The notes under the pieces are model-generated. The model had not been told where the DNA came from, did no database searches, and was given only the letters and a program-made list of their open reading frames with translations. The translations under genes were made by a program, and so were the position numbers. Below, in pieces: positions 32,859 to 41,433 of a stretch of 62,299 nucleotides of DNA. The first letter of the stretch is position 1. Every line of letters starts with the position of its first letter. Source of the DNA: Defluviicoccus sp. (GTDB taxonomy: Bacteria; Pseudomonadota; Alphaproteobacteria; MPNO01); the NCBI GenBank assembly GCA_028820505.1, contig JAPPIT010000023.1:1-62299 (forward strand), written 5' to 3'.

Positions 32859-34172
32859 TCAATCCATCAGCCCCGGGAGCCAGAGGACGGTTCCGGGAAA
32901 GGCGATCATCACCGCCATGACGATCAGGTTCAGCCCGACGAACGGGAGCGCCGCGCGGTAGACGTCGTTCATCGTCGTGCTCGGCGACGCGATGCCCTTC
33001 ATCACGAAGAGCGAGAGGCCGAAAGGCGGCGAGATGGTCGCCATCTCCAGGTTCAGCACCATGATCGCGCCGAACCAGACCGGGTCCCAGCCCATCGCGG
33101 CGACGATCGGCATGAAGATCGGGATCGTGACCATGACGATGGAGGTCTGCTCGATGAACATGCCGAGAAAGATCACCGCGAGCTGCATCAGGATCAGGAT
33201 GACGATGGGATGAACCGGCAGGTCGGTGGCGAGACGGGTGATCGCTGGAGTGACGCCGGAGAAGCTGAGCAGCTGACCGAAGGCCGCCGAGCCCGTGAGG
33301 ATCAACAGCACCATGACCGATAGCGAGGTCGCCGAGCCCACGGCCTTCTTCATGACCTCCCAGGTCAGGCGGCCGTAAAGCGCGGCGACGACGAGGCTCA
33401 GGAGCGCGCCGACCGCCGCGGCCTCGGTCGGCGTGGCGATGCCGAGAAAGATCGCGCCGATCACGAGCAGGATCACCGAGACCGGCGGCAGCACGTAGCG
33501 AACGGTTTCCGCGAGTCGGCGCGGCAACGGCGTGGGCTCGACGGTGTAGGCTGGAGCCAGCGACGGCTGCAGGTGGCAGCGGATGACGATGTAGGCGACA
33601 TAGATCAGCGCCAGCAGCAGCCCCGGCACGACGATGGCGATCAACAGCTTGCCCACCGAGAACCGGCCGAGGCTCGCAAGGATGACGGCGAGCGCGCTCG
33701 GCGGGATCATGATTGCGAGGCTCCCGCTCGCGAGGATCGGGCCGAGCGACATCGATTTCGCGTAGCCGCGCCGTTCCATGTCGGGGGCCAGCGTCGAGCC
33801 CAGCATGGCGACGCTTCCCATCGCGACGCCGGTGAGCGTCGCGAACAGCGCGCCCGCGCCCACGGCCAGCACGGCCAACCGTCCCGCAATACGGCCGAGC
33901 CACTGGTCGAGCACGTCGATCATCCTGAACGCGACCCCGGAATGGAACATCACCGTCCCCATCAGGATGAACATGGGGAGCGGCACCAGGACGAAGGTCG
34001 AGACCGAGCTGTCGATCGAGAGGATCAGCTGGTTCAGCCCCATCGCGCCGCCCCAGAACACGTAGACGCCGATCAGGTTCACGAGCATGAAGGCGACCGC
34101 CACCGGGAGGCCGACGAGCAGCAGCGCACCCAGGCCCCCGAAGAAACACAGCAGATAGAACCACCACTCCAT
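32859..34172 (-). CDS. dctM: TRAP transporter large permease DctM (system 2)
   Basis: 437 residues, about 12 membrane segments. It starts MEWWFYLLCFFGG, like the other two DctM proteins here, and has the conserved M-G-T-V-M-F-H-S-G, L-T-G-V-A-M-G-S-V-A and I-P-P-S-A-L-A-V regions. It lies 6 bp after dctQ. Its own binding protein is not adjacent; the most likely partner is the dctP at 40420, on the same strand beyond the putative inserted element. Confidence 0.92.
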   Translation of the reverse strand: MEWWFYLLCFFGGLGALLLVGLPVAVAFMLVNLIGVYVFWGGAMGLNQLILSIDSSVSTFVLVPLPMFILMGTVMFHSGVAFRMIDVLDQWLGRIAGRLAVLAVGAGALFATLTGVAMGSVAMLGSTLAPDMERRGYAKSMSLGPILASGSLAIMIPPSALAVILASLGRFSVGKLLIAIVVPGLLLALIYVAYIVIRCHLQPSLAPAYTVEPTPLPRRLAETVRYVLPPVSVILLVIGAIFLGIATPTEAAAVGALLSLVVAALYGRLTWEVMKKAVGSATSLSVMVLLILTGSAAFGQLLSFSGVTPAITRLATDLPVHPIVILILMQLAVIFLGMFIEQTSIVMVTIPIFMPIVAAMGWDPVWFGAIMVLNLEMATISPPFGLSLFVMKGIASPSTTMNDVYRAALPFVGLNLIVMAVMIAFPGTVLWLPGLMD

Positions 34173-34178
34173 CGCGGC

Positions 34179-34730
34179 TCAACCGATCCCTGCGGGCGGC
34201 GCGGACGCCATCCGCCGCCAATGGCGCCAGGCGCGGCGCGCGAACTGAAGGCCGAGGAACAGGCAGCCGATAGGGATCACCACGAGGTTGATGGCACGCG
34301 GCATCTCGAGCTCGGCCGGTATCCGGATTCCCCTTTGCCACGACGACACGGTCTCGAAAGCGCCGAAGCCCGTCACCGCGAAACAAACCGCCATCCCCGC
34401 GATCGAGCCCCAGATCAGGAATTGCCGTCGGACCTCGGGTCCGATCCGGCCGACCAGCAGATCCAGCGTCACGTGCTCCTCGCGGCGCAGTACCCAGGCG
34501 GCCCCGAGGAAGGTTATGTAGAGCAGCATCGTGCCGCTGATCTGGTCGATCCCGATCAGGCCTTCGTGAAGGCCGTAGCGGAAGACGACCTTGACGGTCG
34601 TTGTCAGCATGACCGCGACCATGAGAACCGCGGCCAATATCGCGCCGCCGTCGACAATCAGGTCGAAGACCCGCTCCGCGCGCGAGCCGCGCGAACCCGC
34701 TTCCCGCCCGTCAGCGAAACCGTCGTTCAA
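34179..34730 (-). CDS. dctQ: TRAP transporter small permease DctQ (system 2, TTG start)
   Basis: 183 residues, four membrane segments, with the family motif R-E-E-H-V-T-L-D-L-L-V-G between segments 2 and 3. TTG 34730 is the only suitable start: an in-frame TGA lies two codons upstream, and the first downstream ATG falls inside the first membrane helix. The start codon is only 8 bp from the left direct repeat of the element at 34739, so its original leader, including part of its ribosome site, may have been replaced by insertion. Confidence 0.85.
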   Translation of the reverse strand: MNDGFADGREAGSRGSRAERVFDLIVDGGAILAAVLMVAVMLTTTVKVVFRYGLHEGLIGIDQISGTMLLYITFLGAAWVLRREEHVTLDLLVGRIGPEVRRQFLIWGSIAGMAVCFAVTGFGAFETVSSWQRGIRIPAELEMPRAINLVVIPIGCLFLGLQFARRAWRHWRRMASAPPAGIG

Positions 34731-34738
34731 GGGTCAGA

Positions 34739-34748
34739 GACCTGGTGT
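34739..34748 (+). repeat. Left att-like direct repeat
   Basis: GACCTGGTGT lies 8 bp upstream of the dctQ start. It matches 39103-39112 in the same orientation and is followed by a partly conserved AT-richer stretch ending CGAAA. Confidence 0.5.
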
Positions 34749-34941
34749 AGAATTCTTCGAAAAACTGAGGTGGTATGTTTGGGTTGGGTTGGGTCGTTCT
34801 CTCTCCTTGAATGGTTGTTACTTTAGAATGGGTTAGGTGGTTTGTCGAGGATTTCTTGGGGTTTTTCTGTTTGTCATACGATTGGTGGTTTTGGGGGGTT
34901 CTGGTGGTCTTGGGGGAAGTGTTGGGTGTGCGTATGTCGTT

Positions 34942-34960
34942 GGGTGGGTGCTGGGGTGGG
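34942..34960 (+). promoter_or_regulatory. G-quadruplex motif
   Basis: GGGTGGGTGCTGGGGTGGG has four G-runs with loops of 1, 4 and 1 nt, which strongly favours a stable parallel quadruplex on the plus strand. The role is unknown; near an element end it might affect replication or recombination. Confidence 0.6.
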
Positions 34961-35252
34961 AACCTTTCTCATGACTAGACGGAAACGGGGGAAGCCCGGG
35001 GTGGCAGGCTCCGCCCTCCGATTGTGAGGAACATAGAAGGTGTTTCCGGCCCGTCCGTGCTCTCCGGGGCTGCCTGTGTCGCGGCGGGAGGGGCGGCCCC
35101 CATTCGCCACTTATGTTGAACTTGTTGCTTATTTTTAGACCCGCGCCGATCACGGCATCTATTTAGGTTGTATATAATTCCCTGTATAGGAACCGTATAA
35201 GATGAGACGAAAACTTGGACTCCCGCGCTTGAGGTTCGCTCCCGCGACGGTC

Positions 35253-35293
35253 GGCCGGGTAGGGGAGCGTTGCCGAGCCCCTCCTACCCGGCC
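35253..35293. repeat. Large GC hairpin A
   Basis: GGCCGGGTAGG (from 35253) pairs with CCTACCCGGCC (to 35293), extended inward by GG/CC pairs with a small bulge. It is 20 bp from hairpin B and lies within the non-coding part of the element. Confidence 0.6.
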
Positions 35294-35313
35294 CATCGAA
35301 TGAGACCGGGGTC

Positions 35314-35350
35314 GGCCTTGTGCGGTTTTTCGCAGTTCCCGCACAAGGCC
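35314..35350. terminator. Large hairpin B downstream of the lipoprotein gene
   Basis: A perfect 12-bp stem GGCCTTGTGCGG (35314-35325) with CCGCACAAGGCC (35339-35350) around a 13-nt loop. It lies about 75 bp after the minus-strand lipoprotein stop, so it may end that transcript, although no U-run follows on that strand. Confidence 0.45.
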
Positions 35351-35424
35351 AAAAGGATAGCTCCGGCGTCACCCGTCGCGAATGCGTCGCGCGTTGTACA
35401 TCCCTCCTCCGGCTTCGCCTGCGG

Positions 35425-36426
35425 CTATTGCCGCTTCACGCCGTAGGTTCCGGTCATCCGGCCGATATTCGTGTACTGCGCATGGAACCCGCCAATGGCA
35501 CCCATGGTCTCGTCCGTCCGGTCCTCGAACAAGAACCCATTCCACCAATTGCCTTGGCTGTTCCCGGGCGTGGTCTGGTCGGCGGATATCGTCCATTGGA
35601 CCTCCGCACGACCGTTGCCGGGGGCGCTGACAAATCCCGGGAAACCGCGGTCGGGGTCGAATTCCTGGCGGAGCAGCGAAACCGTCCATTCCTTCGGGTC
35701 GCCGGCCGCAACGAAGTTGTCGATGGTGCCGGTCGCGCTACCGTCCGCAATGTCGATGGTAAGCGAAGCGTCCGCGGTGAACTCCCCGCCTTCGTTCTGT
35801 CCTTCGGCGGGGTTGGAAATCGCGTAGATGCCGGCGGCGTGGCCCTCGAAGATCGCCCGGCCTTGCAGCCCCGTGATATCCCGGACAAGGGGAAGATCGC
35901 CTGTTACCGTGAAGAGTTGACCGTAATCGTCGAACCAGCTTCTTCCAGAACTGTTGGACATCTCGGTCTGCCACCACCCGTAGACAAGGTGGCCCTCCGC
36001 TCCCAGCGGGGTCCGGTAGAGGACCGCGACGTTCTTGGCCGAGGGGTCGGCCTGCGGATCGCCAGCGCGCTCGAACCGTTCACCCCGCCACTCGCCGAAT
36101 TGCGGCGGATCGTCTGCCGCACGGTCGAGAACGAGATCCGGACGATCCGCGTGCCGGTTTTGAAACTCGATCGTCAAGGTCGAGCCATCGTCGGCACGGA
36201 ATTCTCGGGTATCGGCCGAAGAAATGCGGTTGGAAGAGTGGAGACCCGAATATTGCAGCCATGCGGTCCCTTCGGCGCGAAGGTCCGAAAGCGCTCGTTC
36301 TGCCGCTTCCAGGTCGGCCTCCAGGTTACTGACCTTGGCGCTGTCGTCGCCGTTGTCGTTCGAGCTGCACGCGCCAAGCAGGAGGGCGGCAGCGGCGATG
36401 GCTGCGATGGTTCCGATTCTGTGCAT
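35425..36426 (-). CDS. Surface lipoprotein with TbpB-like barrel domain
   Basis: 333 residues. A lipoprotein signal ends L-L-G-A-C20, followed by an acidic linker and a coiled coil (about 30-52, V-S-N-L-E-A-D-L-E-A-A-E-R-A-L-S-D-L). The C-terminal half has the repeated G-T/F-x-A-x-x-x-I-D strands and closes with G-R-M-T-G-T-Y-G-V-K-R-Q, the ending typical of transferrin-binding protein B-type beta barrels that are exported to the cell surface by Slam proteins. ATG 36426 fits the signal peptide; ATG 36444 is an alternative. It is the only non-recombinase gene in the putative element. Base composition is somewhat lower in GC than that of the neighbours. The ligand is unknown. Confidence 0.7.
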   Translation of the reverse strand: MHRIGTIAAIAAAALLLGACSSNDNGDDSAKVSNLEADLEAAERALSDLRAEGTAWLQYSGLHSSNRISSADTREFRADDGSTLTIEFQNRHADRPDLVLDRAADDPPQFGEWRGERFERAGDPQADPSAKNVAVLYRTPLGAEGHLVYGWWQTEMSNSSGRSWFDDYGQLFTVTGDLPLVRDITGLQGRAIFEGHAAGIYAISNPAEGQNEGGEFTADASLTIDIADGSATGTIDNFVAAGDPKEWTVSLLRQEFDPDRGFPGFVSAPGNGRAEVQWTISADQTTPGNSQGNWWNGFLFEDRTDETMGAIGGFHAQYTNIGRMTGTYGVKRQ

Positions 36427-36711
36427 GTTATCGGTCTTTCCCATGTTGTTGCCTTCGCCCGGGGTGCCGGGCGTTGCACACATCACCGGAAAGTGAAGTC
36501 CCCGCCTATTTGCCAAGCGCGGGGAGCTACCCCTCGCCGGGTATCAGGCTCTTGTATTCAGCGGGCCGCCCGACTCGGCGGACTCCGGCTGATGTGTGCG
36601 AGGAGAAGCTAAGCAGGATCCGGACATTCTGGCAATGCTCTGCAGCTGCTCTACAGCGGCTCGGCATGTGCTGTGCCGACCGAATGACGACGATGACGTG
36701 CGCCAGGCGGT

Positions 36712-37857
36712 CTAGAGGCCCATCAGGTTGGCCACGGCGTGCCCCACGCGTTCGGCGGCCCGTTCGATGTCGCGGTCGCCGAGATGCGCGTATCTGAGCG
36801 TCATTCGGGTATTGGAATGACCGAGCAGGCGGGAGACCACGGGCACCGGCACGCCGTTCATCACCGCGTGGCTGGCGTGCGTATGCCGGAGATCGTGAAG
36901 CCTGACGTCCTCGATGCCGGCCTCCCTGCGCGCCCGGTACCAGAGCCCGATGTCGGGCCCTCTCGGCCGCGACGGGTCGCGGGGCGAGGGGAACACGAAC
37001 GGGCTGTCTCCCCGGGGCTGGCGTTCGAGGATGGCCCGCGCCCGTGCGTTGAGCGGAACCTCCCTCGGCCCGGTCTTGGTATCCGCCATGACGAGCGTGT
37101 CGCCGCGTACCTCGGCCCAGCGCAGCCGGACGATCTCGTTTCTGCGGCACCCGGTGAGCAGCAGCAGCCGGATGATGTCGGCCTGGGCCGCATCGCGCCT
37201 GCCCGAGTGCGCATCGAGCACGCCGTGGAGGCGGGCGATTTCTTCGCTGGACAGGAAGCGGGTCATCTTGCGTCGGCGGTTGGGTCTGATGTCCCGCGCG
37301 GGGTTGGTGTCGAGATGACCCTTGGCGGCGGCGAAATTGAGGATCTGGCGCAGCAGCCTGAGCGCGTTGTTGGCGTTGCCGGGCGCGGTGCGGCTCCATG
37401 CGTCGAACCGGCGCCTGAGCTCGGCGGGGGCGATGCGGTCGAGCTGCTTCTCCCCGAAGGCGGGGAGCAGGCGGGCGTCGAGCAGCCAGCGATAGGTCTT
37501 CCTGGTGGCGGGCTTGCAGCGCTCGAAATGCGCTTCTTTCCACTCGCCCTCCACGAACTCGCGGAACAGGGGCACGGCGCGCACCGGACCGGCGGGCTCC
37601 GCCGTCTCCGGATTTACCCTCCGCTCAAGGCACGCCCGCCGCGCCTCCCCCACGGTCATGGTCGAGACCGGGCCGAGCGAGACGCGTCTGGATGTTCCCC
37701 CCGCATCCTCCAGCATGACCCAGGTCATCCCGCCGGTCGGGCGGACCCGCACTCCGAGCCCGGGCACGCTCCTGTCCCAGACGGTATATTCCCGCGCACG
37801 GGGCCGCAGACGCGCGATTGCGGCGTCGGTAAGCCTGCTCCGTTCCCTTGCCGGCAT
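36712..37857 (-). CDS. Tyrosine recombinase (phage-type integrase), second of pair
   Basis: 381 residues. N-terminal DUF4102-like arm (1-85), core-binding SAM-like domain (about 95-185) and catalytic domain. All catalytic residues are visible: Arg238 (T-G-C-R), Lys261, His321-x2-Arg324 (H-D-L-R-H-T-H-A-S), His347 (L-L-G-H) and Tyr356. It begins 3 bp after the stop of the other recombinase gene, so the two are translationally coupled. The sequences differ clearly, arguing against a recent duplication. Tandem recombinases are often needed together for movement of small elements. Confidence 0.93.
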   Translation of the reverse strand: MPARERSRLTDAAIARLRPRAREYTVWDRSVPGLGVRVRPTGGMTWVMLEDAGGTSRRVSLGPVSTMTVGEARRACLERRVNPETAEPAGPVRAVPLFREFVEGEWKEAHFERCKPATRKTYRWLLDARLLPAFGEKQLDRIAPAELRRRFDAWSRTAPGNANNALRLLRQILNFAAAKGHLDTNPARDIRPNRRRKMTRFLSSEEIARLHGVLDAHSGRRDAAQADIIRLLLLTGCRRNEIVRLRWAEVRGDTLVMADTKTGPREVPLNARARAILERQPRGDSPFVFPSPRDPSRPRGPDIGLWYRARREAGIEDVRLHDLRHTHASHAVMNGVPVPVVSRLLGHSNTRMTLRYAHLGDRDIERAAERVGHAVANLMGL

Positions 37858-37860
37858 GGT

Positions 37861-39036
37861 TCAGCCTCCGAGTACATTGCCGAGAGTTTCAGCGGCCTCT
37901 CTTGCCATCGCGCCGGCGGGATGCGTGTATTTGAGGGTGGTCTCGGCGCTGGCGTGACCGAGCAGTCGGCCGATGGCGAGCACGGTCTCGCCCTGCCTCA
38001 GCGCGATGCTGGCATGGGTATGCCGGAGATCGTGAAGACGGACATCGGCGATGCCGGCCTCGGCGCGGACCTCCCACCAGAAGCGGTTGAGCCAGTGCTC
38101 GCCGCAGGGGCGGTCGGCGCGCGGCGACGGGAAGACCCAGCGGCTGGTCCGTTCAAGACCGTCGAGCACCGCCCGGGCCGGGGTCGACAGCCACACCGTC
38201 CGGGGACCGGCCTTGCCGTCGCGGAGGAACAGGTTACCCTCGCGGTAGTCGGACCAGCGCAGCGTCAGGATCTCGCCCTTGCGGCACCCGGTCAGCAGAA
38301 GAAGGCGGATGACGGCGACCTGTCGGGGGTATCGCAAGGCATGATCCGACAGGACCCCGGACAGTCGTCGTATCTCGTCGTCCGACAGGAACCGCTCGCG
38401 GCCCTTGCGGCGGTAGCGCCTTATCCCCCGGCACGGGTTGGAGCCCTCCGGCCGGAGCCCCATCCGCTCCGCCTCGCGCATGACGACGGAGAGCACCGGC
38501 TTGGAGCGGTCGGCGGCGACCGGGGTAGCGGCCAGCGAAGCGAACCAGCCGCGCACCTCGCGGGCGTCGATCTCGGCGACGGGGCGCCCGGCGAAACGCG
38601 GCAGTATCTGATTCTTGAGGTAGCTCCGGTTCACCTCCAGCGTGCGCGGCTTCCAGAGCCGCTCGTACTGGCGGAACACGGTCTCGGCGACGGCCTCGAA
38701 CAGCGTCTCCTCGGGCCGGGCCAGCGCGACCTCGCCCCGCCTGATGGCCGCGAGCATGCCTCCCGCGCGCGAGCGCGCCTCGTCGATGCCGATGGCGTCG
38801 AAATCGCCCACGATCTTCCAGACGCGCTCTCCGTTGCGCTGGCAGTGGACGAAGAAGCGCTTGCGCCCGGAGGGCGTCACCCGGACGCCGAAGCCCCTGA
38901 GTCTGGCGTCGCGGATCTCGTAGGGGGTCTTGCGTGGAACGAGCGCCCCGATTCGGGCGTCGGTGAGGTTGGTTCTGACCAAGTTCGCTTCTCCCGGTTT
39001 CGGTTGCACCGGGGAAGTAACGGCTGCGCGTTCCAT
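37861..39036 (-). CDS. Tyrosine recombinase (phage-type integrase), first of pair
   Basis: 391 residues with an arm-binding domain containing L-R-G-F-G-V-R-V-T-P-S-G, a core-binding domain (about 110-200) and a full catalytic set: Arg252, Lys275, His335, Arg338, His361 and Tyr370. It lies 67 bp inside the right direct repeat at 39103, the usual position of an integrase gene next to its att site. ATG 39036 gives a basic/neutral N-terminal tail of 20 residues before the domain; a later TTG is possible. The downstream recombinase follows after 3 bp. Confidence 0.93.
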   Translation of the reverse strand: MERAAVTSPVQPKPGEANLVRTNLTDARIGALVPRKTPYEIRDARLRGFGVRVTPSGRKRFFVHCQRNGERVWKIVGDFDAIGIDEARSRAGGMLAAIRRGEVALARPEETLFEAVAETVFRQYERLWKPRTLEVNRSYLKNQILPRFAGRPVAEIDAREVRGWFASLAATPVAADRSKPVLSVVMREAERMGLRPEGSNPCRGIRRYRRKGRERFLSDDEIRRLSGVLSDHALRYPRQVAVIRLLLLTGCRKGEILTLRWSDYREGNLFLRDGKAGPRTVWLSTPARAVLDGLERTSRWVFPSPRADRPCGEHWLNRFWWEVRAEAGIADVRLHDLRHTHASIALRQGETVLAIGRLLGHASAETTLKYTHPAGAMAREAAETLGNVLGG

Positions 39037-39102
39037 TCCCCAGTTGCAGCGTTGCGAGAGAAAAAACGACCCTATATCAATCGGTTAGCACCGCAGGTGC
39101 GC

Positions 39103-39112
39103 GACCTGGTGT
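39103..39112 (+). repeat. Right att-like direct repeat
   Basis: GACCTGGTGT repeats the sequence at 34739-34748. It lies 42 bp beyond the 3' end of the Rieske oxygenase gene, between that gene and the first recombinase. Confidence 0.5.
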
Positions 39113-39153: not shown

Positions 39154-40341
39154 CTATTCCGCGGCCGTTTCCAGCCTCAACCCGGCCGCGCCTTCGTCAC
39201 CGGTGATGGCAGGACGGCGCGCGTTCTCCACCATGAATTTTCGCCAGGCGACAACGCCGACATCGCTCCGCGACAGTTGCTCGGCATTCGAGCGCACACC
39301 CTCGACGATTCTCTTGTCCTGGTCCGAGAACACCCAGTCATGGGCCCACGACTGCCACAGCGCCCAGCCGATCCTGTCGAGCAGGGTCCCCAGGGCGTGG
39401 CGGCGGCGGAACGCGTTCAACGAGTAGAACAGCGTCGTCTCCGCATCGACGGGCGTGACCCAGCGGCACATGAAGTAGTCTCCCGCGGGACGCCCTACCA
39501 GCGTCACCGCCGGCAGGAGCGACATGTGCCGGTATCTGATGCCGTACCGCTTTACCGCCTGCGATGTCTCCGGATCCATTTCCTTGCCGCGGCCGCGCGG
39601 TTTCAGCCTGCGCCAGAACGTCTCCCGGGGCGGCGGGAAATGTCCCAGGCCGGGGTAGCGGGCCTCCGTGATGCCATCGCGCGCGGCGTAGCCGAGCCCC
39701 TTCGAGTCTTCCAGCGGGGCGGTCGCGATCCGACTCGCGAAGGGGAAGACCGGCTGGAAAACCAGCTCCGGTGAGTTCCTGTGCACGAACGGCGCGTGCA
39801 GGTCGTAACAGAGATTGTCGTTCAGAACCCGCCAGTTGCAGCGATAGGTCCGCCAGGTCGAGATCGTGTGCCACTCATCGGTGTCCGCCAGGCATTCCGG
39901 CAGGTCTTCCTCCAGCGGCACGGCGTCCATGTCGCCGACGAACAGCCAGATCACGCCGCGATGCTCGCGAACCGCATAGGACTTGACCTTCGCCTCCGCA
40001 GGTATGGCGGTGTCGGGTCCTTCCATCAGCTTGGCGACGCACTTGCCGGTCTCGCCCGAGTAGGTCCAGCCATGATAGGGGCAGGTGAGCGTCCCGGTGC
40101 CGGGATAGAGGCATCTCCCCTGCGACAGCCGCGCGCCGCGATGCGCGCATTGATCCCGGAGGGCATGAATCCGACCGCTGTCGCGAAATAGAACGACCTC
40201 CTCGCCGAGCAGCCGGACCGTCTTCGGGCGTCGGCGGAGCCGCCACGCGGCCAGCGCCGGATACCAGTAATTCCGGAGACCCAGTTCAGGCAGGCCGGTC
40301 CCGGCGTAGACATCGGTCTCCGTCGGGATGTGTGCGGTCAT
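39154..40341 (-). CDS. Rieske oxygenase large subunit
   Basis: 395 residues. Rieske ligands are C65-A-H67 and C87-P-Y-H90, with 19 residues between pairs, slightly more than the usual 16-17 because of a C-L-Y-P-G-T-G-T insert. The catalytic iron ligands are in N-D-N-L-C-Y-D-L-H-A-P-F-V-H (H-x4-H). It resembles aromatic-ring or choline/carnitine-type oxygenases with N-terminal Y-W-Y-P-A-L. It sits 78 bp downstream of dctP on the same strand, so its substrate is probably the compound imported by that TRAP system. No reductase is near. Confidence 0.88.
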   Translation of the reverse strand: MTAHIPTETDVYAGTGLPELGLRNYWYPALAAWRLRRRPKTVRLLGEEVVLFRDSGRIHALRDQCAHRGARLSQGRCLYPGTGTLTCPYHGWTYSGETGKCVAKLMEGPDTAIPAEAKVKSYAVREHRGVIWLFVGDMDAVPLEEDLPECLADTDEWHTISTWRTYRCNWRVLNDNLCYDLHAPFVHRNSPELVFQPVFPFASRIATAPLEDSKGLGYAARDGITEARYPGLGHFPPPRETFWRRLKPRGRGKEMDPETSQAVKRYGIRYRHMSLLPAVTLVGRPAGDYFMCRWVTPVDAETTLFYSLNAFRRRHALGTLLDRIGWALWQSWAHDWVFSDQDKRIVEGVRSNAEQLSRSDVGVVAWRKFMVENARRPAITGDEGAAGLRLETAAE

Positions 40342-40419: not shown

Positions 40420-41433
40420 TTACTTGTATCCCAGCAGACGCCGGGCGGTCGCGTACTCGTCCGCGCTCATCACCGACTTGAACTGGGCCCAGAGCGCCTC
40501 GTTGGCGGTGTTCTCCCACTGCGCGGCCTCCTTGTCGGAGAAGGTCACGAGCTTCATGCCGCCCTTCAGCATCGCCTTGAGCTGCTGTGCCTGGAAGGCC
40601 GACACCCAGCCCGCCGTCCAACCCTGGACCGGACCGACCGCATCCAGCATCACCTTCTTCGCATCGCCCGACAGTTTGTTCCACTTGGCGAGGTTCATCA
40701 TGATGCTGACGCCATCGCGGTAGAGCGGATGACCGATGACGAACTTTGATATCTTGTGCCATCCGAACGCCGTAAAGCCGTCGTAATAGGGCCAGGTGAA
40801 GCCCTCGACGGTGCCGCGTTCAAGCGCCAGGTACACCTCGCTCGGCGGAAGCGTCACCGGCTCGGCGCCGATCTTCTTGACGAAGAACCGGGTCAGCGGA
40901 GGCACGCGGATTTTCCGTCCCTTGAGATCGCCGATACCCTGGATCTTCTTCTGCGTGTACATGAAATGGTTGCCGGTGCTCGGCTCGCCGCAGAAATGGC
41001 CGACATAGCGAACGCCTTTCTTCTCGTACATCTTGACGATGAAGTTGTAGAGATCGCTGCCCGGCCCCTTGTCCGGGACGTCATAGGGCGACAGCTCGAA
41101 GAAATAACCGCCCGGCACGACTCCCGCCCAGTAATTGGGCGCGCCGTACCAGACGTCGAACAGGCCGCGGACCAGCGCTTCGGGCTGATCGAACGTGGGC
41201 ACCACGTCGCGCGATCCCTTGAAGGTGATCTCGACCGTGCCCTTTCCCATCTTGTTGACGGTGTCCAGGTACTTGATGCCGATATCGGCTGCCGAGGACA
41301 CCTTGGGCGGCCAGGATCCGACCATGGTCAGCTTGGTCGGCGCGGCGCTCAGACCGGCGCCGCCCACCGCCATGACGGCGAGAGCCAGCAGACCGGTTCC
41401 GGCCCAGTTCGTAATACGCCTTGCATATTTCAT
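40420..41433 (-). CDS. dctP: TRAP transporter substrate-binding protein DctP (system 2)
   Basis: 337 residues. The signal peptide ends near G-L-S-A/A-P (residue 30). The mature protein has the DctP elements D-L-K-G-R-K-I-R-V-P-P-L and L-A-L-E-R-G-T-V-E-G-F-T-W-P. GGGAGGGAAATCG precedes the ATG. It heads a minus-strand unit: dctP, Rieske oxygenase, then beyond the putative element dctQ and dctM. It is divergent from the TPP decarboxylase pair at 41584, sharing a 150-bp promoter region. Confidence 0.92.
   Translation of the reverse strand: MKYARRITNWAGTGLLALAVMAVGGAGLSAAPTKLTMVGSWPPKVSSAADIGIKYLDTVNKMGKGTVEITFKGSRDVVPTFDQPEALVRGLFDVWYGAPNYWAGVVPGGYFFELSPYDVPDKGPGSDLYNFIVKMYEKKGVRYVGHFCGEPSTGNHFMYTQKKIQGIGDLKGRKIRVPPLTRFFVKKIGAEPVTLPPSEVYLALERGTVEGFTWPYYDGFTAFGWHKISKFVIGHPLYRDGVSIMMNLAKWNKLSGDAKKVMLDAVGPVQGWTAGWVSAFQAQQLKAMLKGGMKLVTFSDKEAAQWENTANEALWAQFKSVMSADEYATARRLLGYK

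Follow-up and report, generated by a model that had tools for sequence, protein, structure and literature searches.

What separates the two halves of a transporter operon in Defluviicoccus sp., and how did it come to be there? In the 62,299-nucleotide stretch of DNA analyzed here (contig JAPPIT010000023.1; hereafter the window), the genes of a tripartite ATP-independent periplasmic (TRAP) transporter and a Rieske oxygenase lie on the minus strand in the order dctP, Rieske, dctQ, dctM, with the interval 34,739–39,112 between the Rieske gene and dctQ. The comparisons described below support the interpretation of this interval as an integrative element inserted site-specifically into the dctP-Rieske-dctQ-dctM operon, because empty sites exist in two sister genomes, the interval encodes two recombinases, and homologous elements with the same two ends are found elsewhere.

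The interrupted operon and its empty counterparts

The element reads 5' to 3' on the minus strand, from 39102 down to 34744, and is framed by two copies of GACCTGGTGT in the same orientation (Table 1) which, in the element sense, read ACACC followed by AGGTC. This 10-mer occurs 12 times in the 5.49-Mb host genome, so that the repeat alone proves little; both copies coincide with element ends that were defined independently. With 4,364 bp taken out, that is, the element with one repeat, the Rieske stop and the DctQ start are separated by 59 bp. The initial annotation, which had noted the flanking genes and the repeat, was thus right that removal of the interval renders the operon contiguous, with a spacer slightly longer than the anticipated 50 bp or so.

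The uninterrupted DctP-Rieske-DctQ-DctM locus is present in two genomes of the same genus (G004:C261 and G001:C186). The joined flanks of the window align with both without gaps across the insertion point; relative to the empty sites, the insertion is precise and the attL and attR cores match. Both relatives have the locus without the element, the recombinases are not fixed there, and the original proposal of site-specific insertion withstands this comparison. The bases at the insertion point in the two relatives (CATCGAGCC) differ from ACACCAGGTC, so these empty sites do not reveal the pre-insertion address of the window, in the sense of the five-base address discussed below. Two further genomes, G002 and G003, have the Rieske homologue in a different neighborhood and are uninformative on the interruption. 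The genomes of the genus are all draft assemblies, that of the host consisting of 228 contigs. The insertion may uncouple the expression of dctQM from that of dctP-Rieske.

Table 1. Features of the element and of its host flanks in the window
Feature	Position	Strand	Basis
dctM (host flank)	32859..34172	-	annotation of window proteins
dctQ (host flank)	34179..34730	-	annotation of window proteins
Right junction core: element ACACC (34744-34748) + address AGGTC (34739-34743), then host	34739..34748	-	
Subterminal inverted repeat, 3' copy (GGGTCGTTCTCTCTCC)	34791..34806	+	motif at 18 of 20 3' ends
Putative lipoprotein gene, 333 aa, cargo	35425..36426	-	signal peptide and lipobox (by eye, regex)
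Structured leader, about 145 nt, upstream of lipoprotein gene	36456..36600	-	conserved fold
IntB, tyrosine recombinase, 381 aa	36712..37857	-	Pfam Phage_integrase, 3e-22
IntA, tyrosine recombinase, 391 aa	37861..39036	-	Pfam Phage_integrase, 8e-19, and Arm-DNA-bind_3
Subterminal inverted repeat, 5' copy (GGGTCGTTTTTTCTCTC inward); probable integrase arm site	39056..39072	-	motif at 33 of 37 5' ends
Element 5' terminus, inverted repeat (GC)GCACC-TGC-GGTGC	39088..39102	-	common to family copies
Left junction core: host ACACC + overlap/address AGGTC (element sense)	39103..39112	-	ACACC before anchored 5' ends
Rieske oxygenase gene (host flank)	39154..40341	-	annotation of window proteins
dctP (host flank)	40420..41433	-	annotation of window proteins

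A multi-copy family built on two recombinases

The contents of the interval listed in the initial annotation, namely two coupled tyrosine recombinases, a lipoprotein gene and structured DNA, were all recovered, whereas its description of the element as compact applies to the window member only, given that another member of the family spans about 30.5 kb. The recombinases, IntA and IntB, are both intact matches to the Pfam Phage_integrase family, with IntB starting 3 nt past IntA; the catalytic residues R252, H335, R338, H361 and Y370 of IntA are invariant among the 14 sequences compared. Searches of NCBIfam and PHROGs yielded nothing beyond generic integrase names for either protein.

Searching the host's own genome with IntA gave 60 matches at E<=0.001, and at E<=1e-100 copies were found in 7 of the 80 genomes searched: 15 in G000, 2, 10, 6 and 13 in its four sister genomes, and 3 and 1 in two genomes that are more distant. 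The homology among the copies extends from the 5' end to just past IntB, defining a 2.4-kb module that consists of the 5' end and the two tandem recombinases, and the sequence beyond IntB differs from copy to copy. No pair among the 31 copies with a complete core exceeds 88% identity over the 2.4 kb, so the family is not the product of a recent burst. By gene calls, most copies encode two recombinases, as the window does; in one (G004:C162, locus L146, about 5.2–11 kb), an insert with a large predicted gene of unassigned function lies between IntA and an IntB-like gene. In a wider scan of genome contigs, the best 80 of 230 relatives come mostly from metagenome bins whose names read Defluviicoccus, Rhodospirillales, Boseongicola or no more than Alphaproteobacteria, while a few are labeled Gammaproteobacteria and one Chloroflexi; judging from the bin names, many of these are presumably derived from sponges.

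The ends of the elements and the target motif

The left ends were gathered by anchoring on element sequence only, which gave 55 distinct 5' ends. In 52 of these, ACACC is located 6–8 bp upstream of the first GCACC, the five positions after ACACC (N5) are near random (about 0.0–0.3 bits each), and the element then starts with (G)CGCACC-TN-GGTGCTAAC. When interrupted loci were compared with uninterrupted genes of sister genomes, the homology ended no more than 2 bp from GCACC in all 11 cases.

The right ends are harder to find, as most copies are truncated by contig ends; they were located via the missing C-terminal halves of interrupted genes and, additionally, by a pattern search. The latter produced 52 matches, many of them chance matches inside genes (10 for the reversed-pattern control), and only those resembling verified 3' ends were kept. 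Of the 20 right ends defined in this way, 18 have a terminus with an inward repeat of the GGTCGTT type, the inverted counterpart of the repeat seen at the left, and all but one finish in [CT]ACACC, followed by host sequence. The overall pattern is host ACACC, N5, element, ACACC, N5, host, and ACACC is the only fixed target feature seen besides N5. One element, G003:C183, has both ends on a single contig; it is the member of about 30.5 kb.

Two unusual ends were encountered. Within the first 80 bases of G000:C33 (L237), near the contig end, the right end of the element in the nitrite-reductase-like gene (NirK) carries ACACCTTCCT in tandem duplicate. On G000:C129 (L042, about 8.5–11.9 kb), one element has its left end within the IntA gene of a second element, at the conserved RHTHA codons; this nested end adjoins ACACG rather than ACACC, and the nesting places three recombinases in a row.

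Distant relatives on plasmids

A tblastn search against plasmids returned 38 records at E<=1e-30, every one below 60% identity. On complete Shewanella plasmids, relatives about 39% identical obey the same ACACC plus N5 rule: the recombinase pair lies between two exact copies of ACACCCCACG that are 9,301 bp apart on pS22301 and 6,834 bp apart on pSBAL17501, and pS18501, with a single ACACCCCACG, is an empty site. The cargo of the two occupied sites differs: one has type I modification and specificity genes, the other a BstXI-type system. On the megaplasmid of Shewanella oneidensis MR-1, the same left end and recombinase pair are followed by other genes. Among nine distant loci, ACACC occurs no more than 230 bp upstream of the first recombinase in eight (1.4 expected; the miss is V. 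europaeus), and a short inverted repeat 3–5 bp past ACACC, in the position of the 5' terminus of the window element, is likewise present in eight of the nine. Two of eight further plasmid relatives have direct repeats that contain ACACC: those of Novosphingobium P6W are 14 bp long, span about 10.3 kb and enclose Drt3a/b, and those of N. humi are 15 bp long and span about 14.6 kb.

Address or duplication?

For 13 of the 20 right ends, the N5 also occurs at a left end in the same genome, but this count includes ends that were paired by N5 itself, so the analysis relies on 14 elements paired via the interrupted gene or operon. These are the elements in the window, in GCS2 genes of G000 and G003, in the alcohol dehydrogenase gene of G000, in TauD, in NirK, in QOR genes of G003 and G004, in HMGL, in two Rieske genes, and in genes for a 2OG oxygenase, a solute-binding protein and a DUF488 protein; C93/C10, matched by N5 only, was left out. 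The N5 is identical at both ends in 12 of the 14 and differs by one base in the other two.

Tyrosine recombinases act on a circle whose overlap has to match that of the target, and normally do not duplicate targets. The preferred reading, to which we assign a probability of roughly 70%, is that the family consists of an IntA-IntB module with arbitrary cargo in which N5 is the overlap matched between circle and target, and hence a heritable address. IntA and IntB would jointly recombine the element ends to form a circle carrying ACACC-N5-(G)CGCACC, which would re-insert at a chromosomal ACACC-N5; strand exchange would take place within or adjoining N5, and circle and target would have to agree in N5, although a single mismatch may be tolerated. 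The N5 would then be a five-letter address that is inherited with the element, offers about ten sites per genome to each element and drifts letter by letter, and one such re-insertion would have split the TRAP/Rieske operon. The number of available sites fits the counts of ACACCAGGTC, which occurs 12, 11, 8, 10 and 9 times in G000 to G004, respectively, so that one address corresponds to about ten candidate sites per genome.

The same ends could arise by target-site duplication, in which a staggered cut of 5 nt yields both copies of N5 from the target and the donor contributes no information. In the elements in the 2OG, solute-binding protein, QOR (two elements), TauD and NirK genes, the N5 at both ends is indeed that of the uninterrupted sister gene, N5 is unconstrained across the family, and many close relatives have very different N5. 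What speaks against duplication is the behavior of N5 within lineages. Among 76 distinct elements, the N5 is the same or within one mismatch in 10 pairs of elements that are at least 80% identical and occupy different targets, compared with 2.5 expected; none of 2000 permutations reached this value, a figure that is indicative given that the permutation treats elements as exchangeable and that the pairs overlap and are not independent. Examples include CCGCT, which recurs at three different targets of a single genome, TTCGT at two, and the pairs AGCTC/CGCTC and ACGCC/CCGCC. The conserved part of the elements, moreover, encodes only tyrosine recombinases, and two elements have differing ends, neither of which duplication would lead one to expect; we consider it unlikely. 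N5 being free across the family and yet similar within element lineages points to a crossover overlap that serves as a heritable address.

The two elements with a one-base difference between their ends are what would be left by strand-biased copy-out/copy-in, the mode of SE elements and Tn554, in which bases from the donor's left flank become the new right end and those of the target stay at the left; tandem recombinases in an end-proximal operon fit this mode as well. It is nevertheless improbable for this family, considering that the bases at the two ends are identical in 12 of the 14 paired elements, that there is no third or fourth conserved gene, and that SE ends are described as carrying different 6-bp sequences (PMC10214605). 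Still less credence can be given to an assembly chimera or to a repeat that frames unrelated genes by chance: the 12 genomic copies of the 10-mer and the fragmentation of the assembly would permit it, but both ends belong to families of homologous ends elsewhere, the operon is empty in two sister genomes and the same architecture recurs on complete plasmids.

Several observations weigh against the address reading. Excision to a circle and the address rule are inferred from the sequences. Many close pairs differ at four of the five N5 positions, for example, the window and C48 elements (0.898), with AGGTC and CTGGA, respectively, which implies that an address is able to change fast, or in some other way. 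The ends are one base apart in G003:C183 (GTCTT/TTCTT) and in the GCS2 element of G003 (CGGGA/CTGGA). Of the 61 loci in the contig scan with a defined left end, one had a matching right end in the available flank (0.35 by chance); contigs break there or the elements are long. Finally, in six of the eight further plasmid loci no ACACC-containing repeat was found within about 14–15 kb.

Related elements occupy the same gene site in different species in QOR (G003 and G004) and in the alcohol dehydrogenase and GCS2 genes (G000 and G003), which may reflect either inheritance or repeated use of one address.

Relation to known elements

The integrases of CTnDOT and Tn916 employ a short core with a variable crossover spacer, as seems to be the case here, but after insertion the spacer at one end differs from that at the other, whereas those of the present family match. 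The fungal Starship elements have a 5' tyrosine recombinase, arbitrary cargo and short direct repeats at a short target motif; being eukaryotic and dependent on a single recombinase of another family, they offer an analogy only.

In its working, the family is most like the GInt elements (PMC5385486), in which a four-gene operon (ginABCD) encodes three recombinases and GinD. Both have their recombinase operon at the 5' end, cargo that varies and can reach a large size, and short terminal repeats, about 10–11 nt in GInts; GInts also form circles, and their authors propose that excision alters the attachment site and so steers target specificity (PMC5385486). GInts are reported to use few sites and to have a poorly conserved 3' end, whereas the present family has two recombinases, no further conserved gene, many ACACC sites and a recognizable 3' end. 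SE elements similarly are small to medium cargo elements with two tyrosine recombinases and no DDE or HUH enzyme, but have the arrangement intA-tfp-intB plus srap and different 6-bp sequences at their ends, in contrast to the adjacent IntA and IntB without another conserved gene and the mostly identical N5 of the present family (PMC10214605). Several adjacent tyrosine recombinases are shared with Tn554-type and RIT elements, from which the family is set apart by their descriptions only, three recombinases in RIT and tnpC in Tn554, as summarized in that source (PMC10214605).

The family falls outside the definitions of GInt, SE and RIT elements because it lacks a third or fourth conserved gene; the sole cluster of three recombinases, that on C129, looks like an element within an element. 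Nor were the integron hallmarks IntI and attC identified, IntA and IntB scoring 32.8 and 37.1 bits against a cut-off of 265 bits for integron integrases. Phrase searches of the open-access literature, in which synonyms may be missed, found nothing describing the family. Its apparent novelty seems to lie in the combination of two recombinases only, an explicit ACACC plus N5 rule, identical ends and many copies per genome.

Cargo and implications

Defense genes are part of the cargo of several members. In a choice of 16 cargo proteins from seven elements, picked for defense-like names or sizes and thus not a survey, 14 have PADLOC matches at E<=1e-5. The complete G003:C183 element carries DrmD, DrmMI, DrmA and DrmB of the DISARM system, a ThsB-like protein and AbiEii. 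The other six encode a type IIG enzyme, an HmaA-like helicase, type I restriction, DruE, MzaB and a PDC-S11 protein; for these, the right end is not on the same contig in the stretch available, and the genes are taken to be cargo by inference. The window element has the lipoprotein gene as its one cargo gene and no recognized defense system.

What the rule offers is an explicit and testable description of insertion for a multi-copy tandem-integrase family, several members of which carry anti-phage systems, and it accounts for the splitting of operons such as the TRAP/Rieske unit. Were the five-letter address decisive, insertion sites would be predictable from sequence, such islands could be delimited automatically, and the IntA-IntB pair could be made into a small tool for insertion, programmable through its short address. 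A broader proposal is that these elements represent an unnamed, widespread two-recombinase superfamily of Alpha- and Gammaproteobacteria that moves defense systems by means of a fixed ACACC and a heritable five-letter address mutating stepwise, with destinations that are predictable and perhaps reprogrammable; we advance it tentatively, at somewhat less than even odds.

The lipoprotein of the window has no Pfam match at E<=0.001, and none at the curated cut-off among matches with E up to 10. The leader upstream of its gene is conserved in nine further loci (L047, L053, L054, L315, L042, L309, L317, L041 and L287), directly 5' of genes for proteins with signal peptides, several of them lipoproteins. 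A covariance model of the leader, applied to 91 loci, gave 13 matches at E<=0.05, of which 11 score more than 100 bits and which include duplicates from overlapping loci; 6 of the 30 base pairs show compensatory changes in an alignment of six sequences only. There is no Rfam match at the gathering level, and the leader may be a new cis-regulatory RNA. An integron reading of the folded region, raised by Rfam sRNA-Xcc1 (E 0.31, below gathering), was rejected on account of the position of the leader directly before genes for secreted proteins or lipoproteins.

The element that interrupts GCS2 on G000:C48 (L031, about 34.2–35.4 kb) carries an intact GCS2 paralogue, 54% identical, just past IntB, as if replacing the disrupted carboxylate-amine ligase gene. 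That the elements generally replace the gene they disrupt was considered and dismissed: in a blastp comparison of 37 ends, a downstream homologue of the host gene was found at C48 only, the matches at C129 and C134 being recombinase genes and that of the window a distant Rieske gene outside the element. The last part of the window element before its 3' end (34749–35110), to which no gene is assigned, has an unusually high content of G and T on the plus strand.

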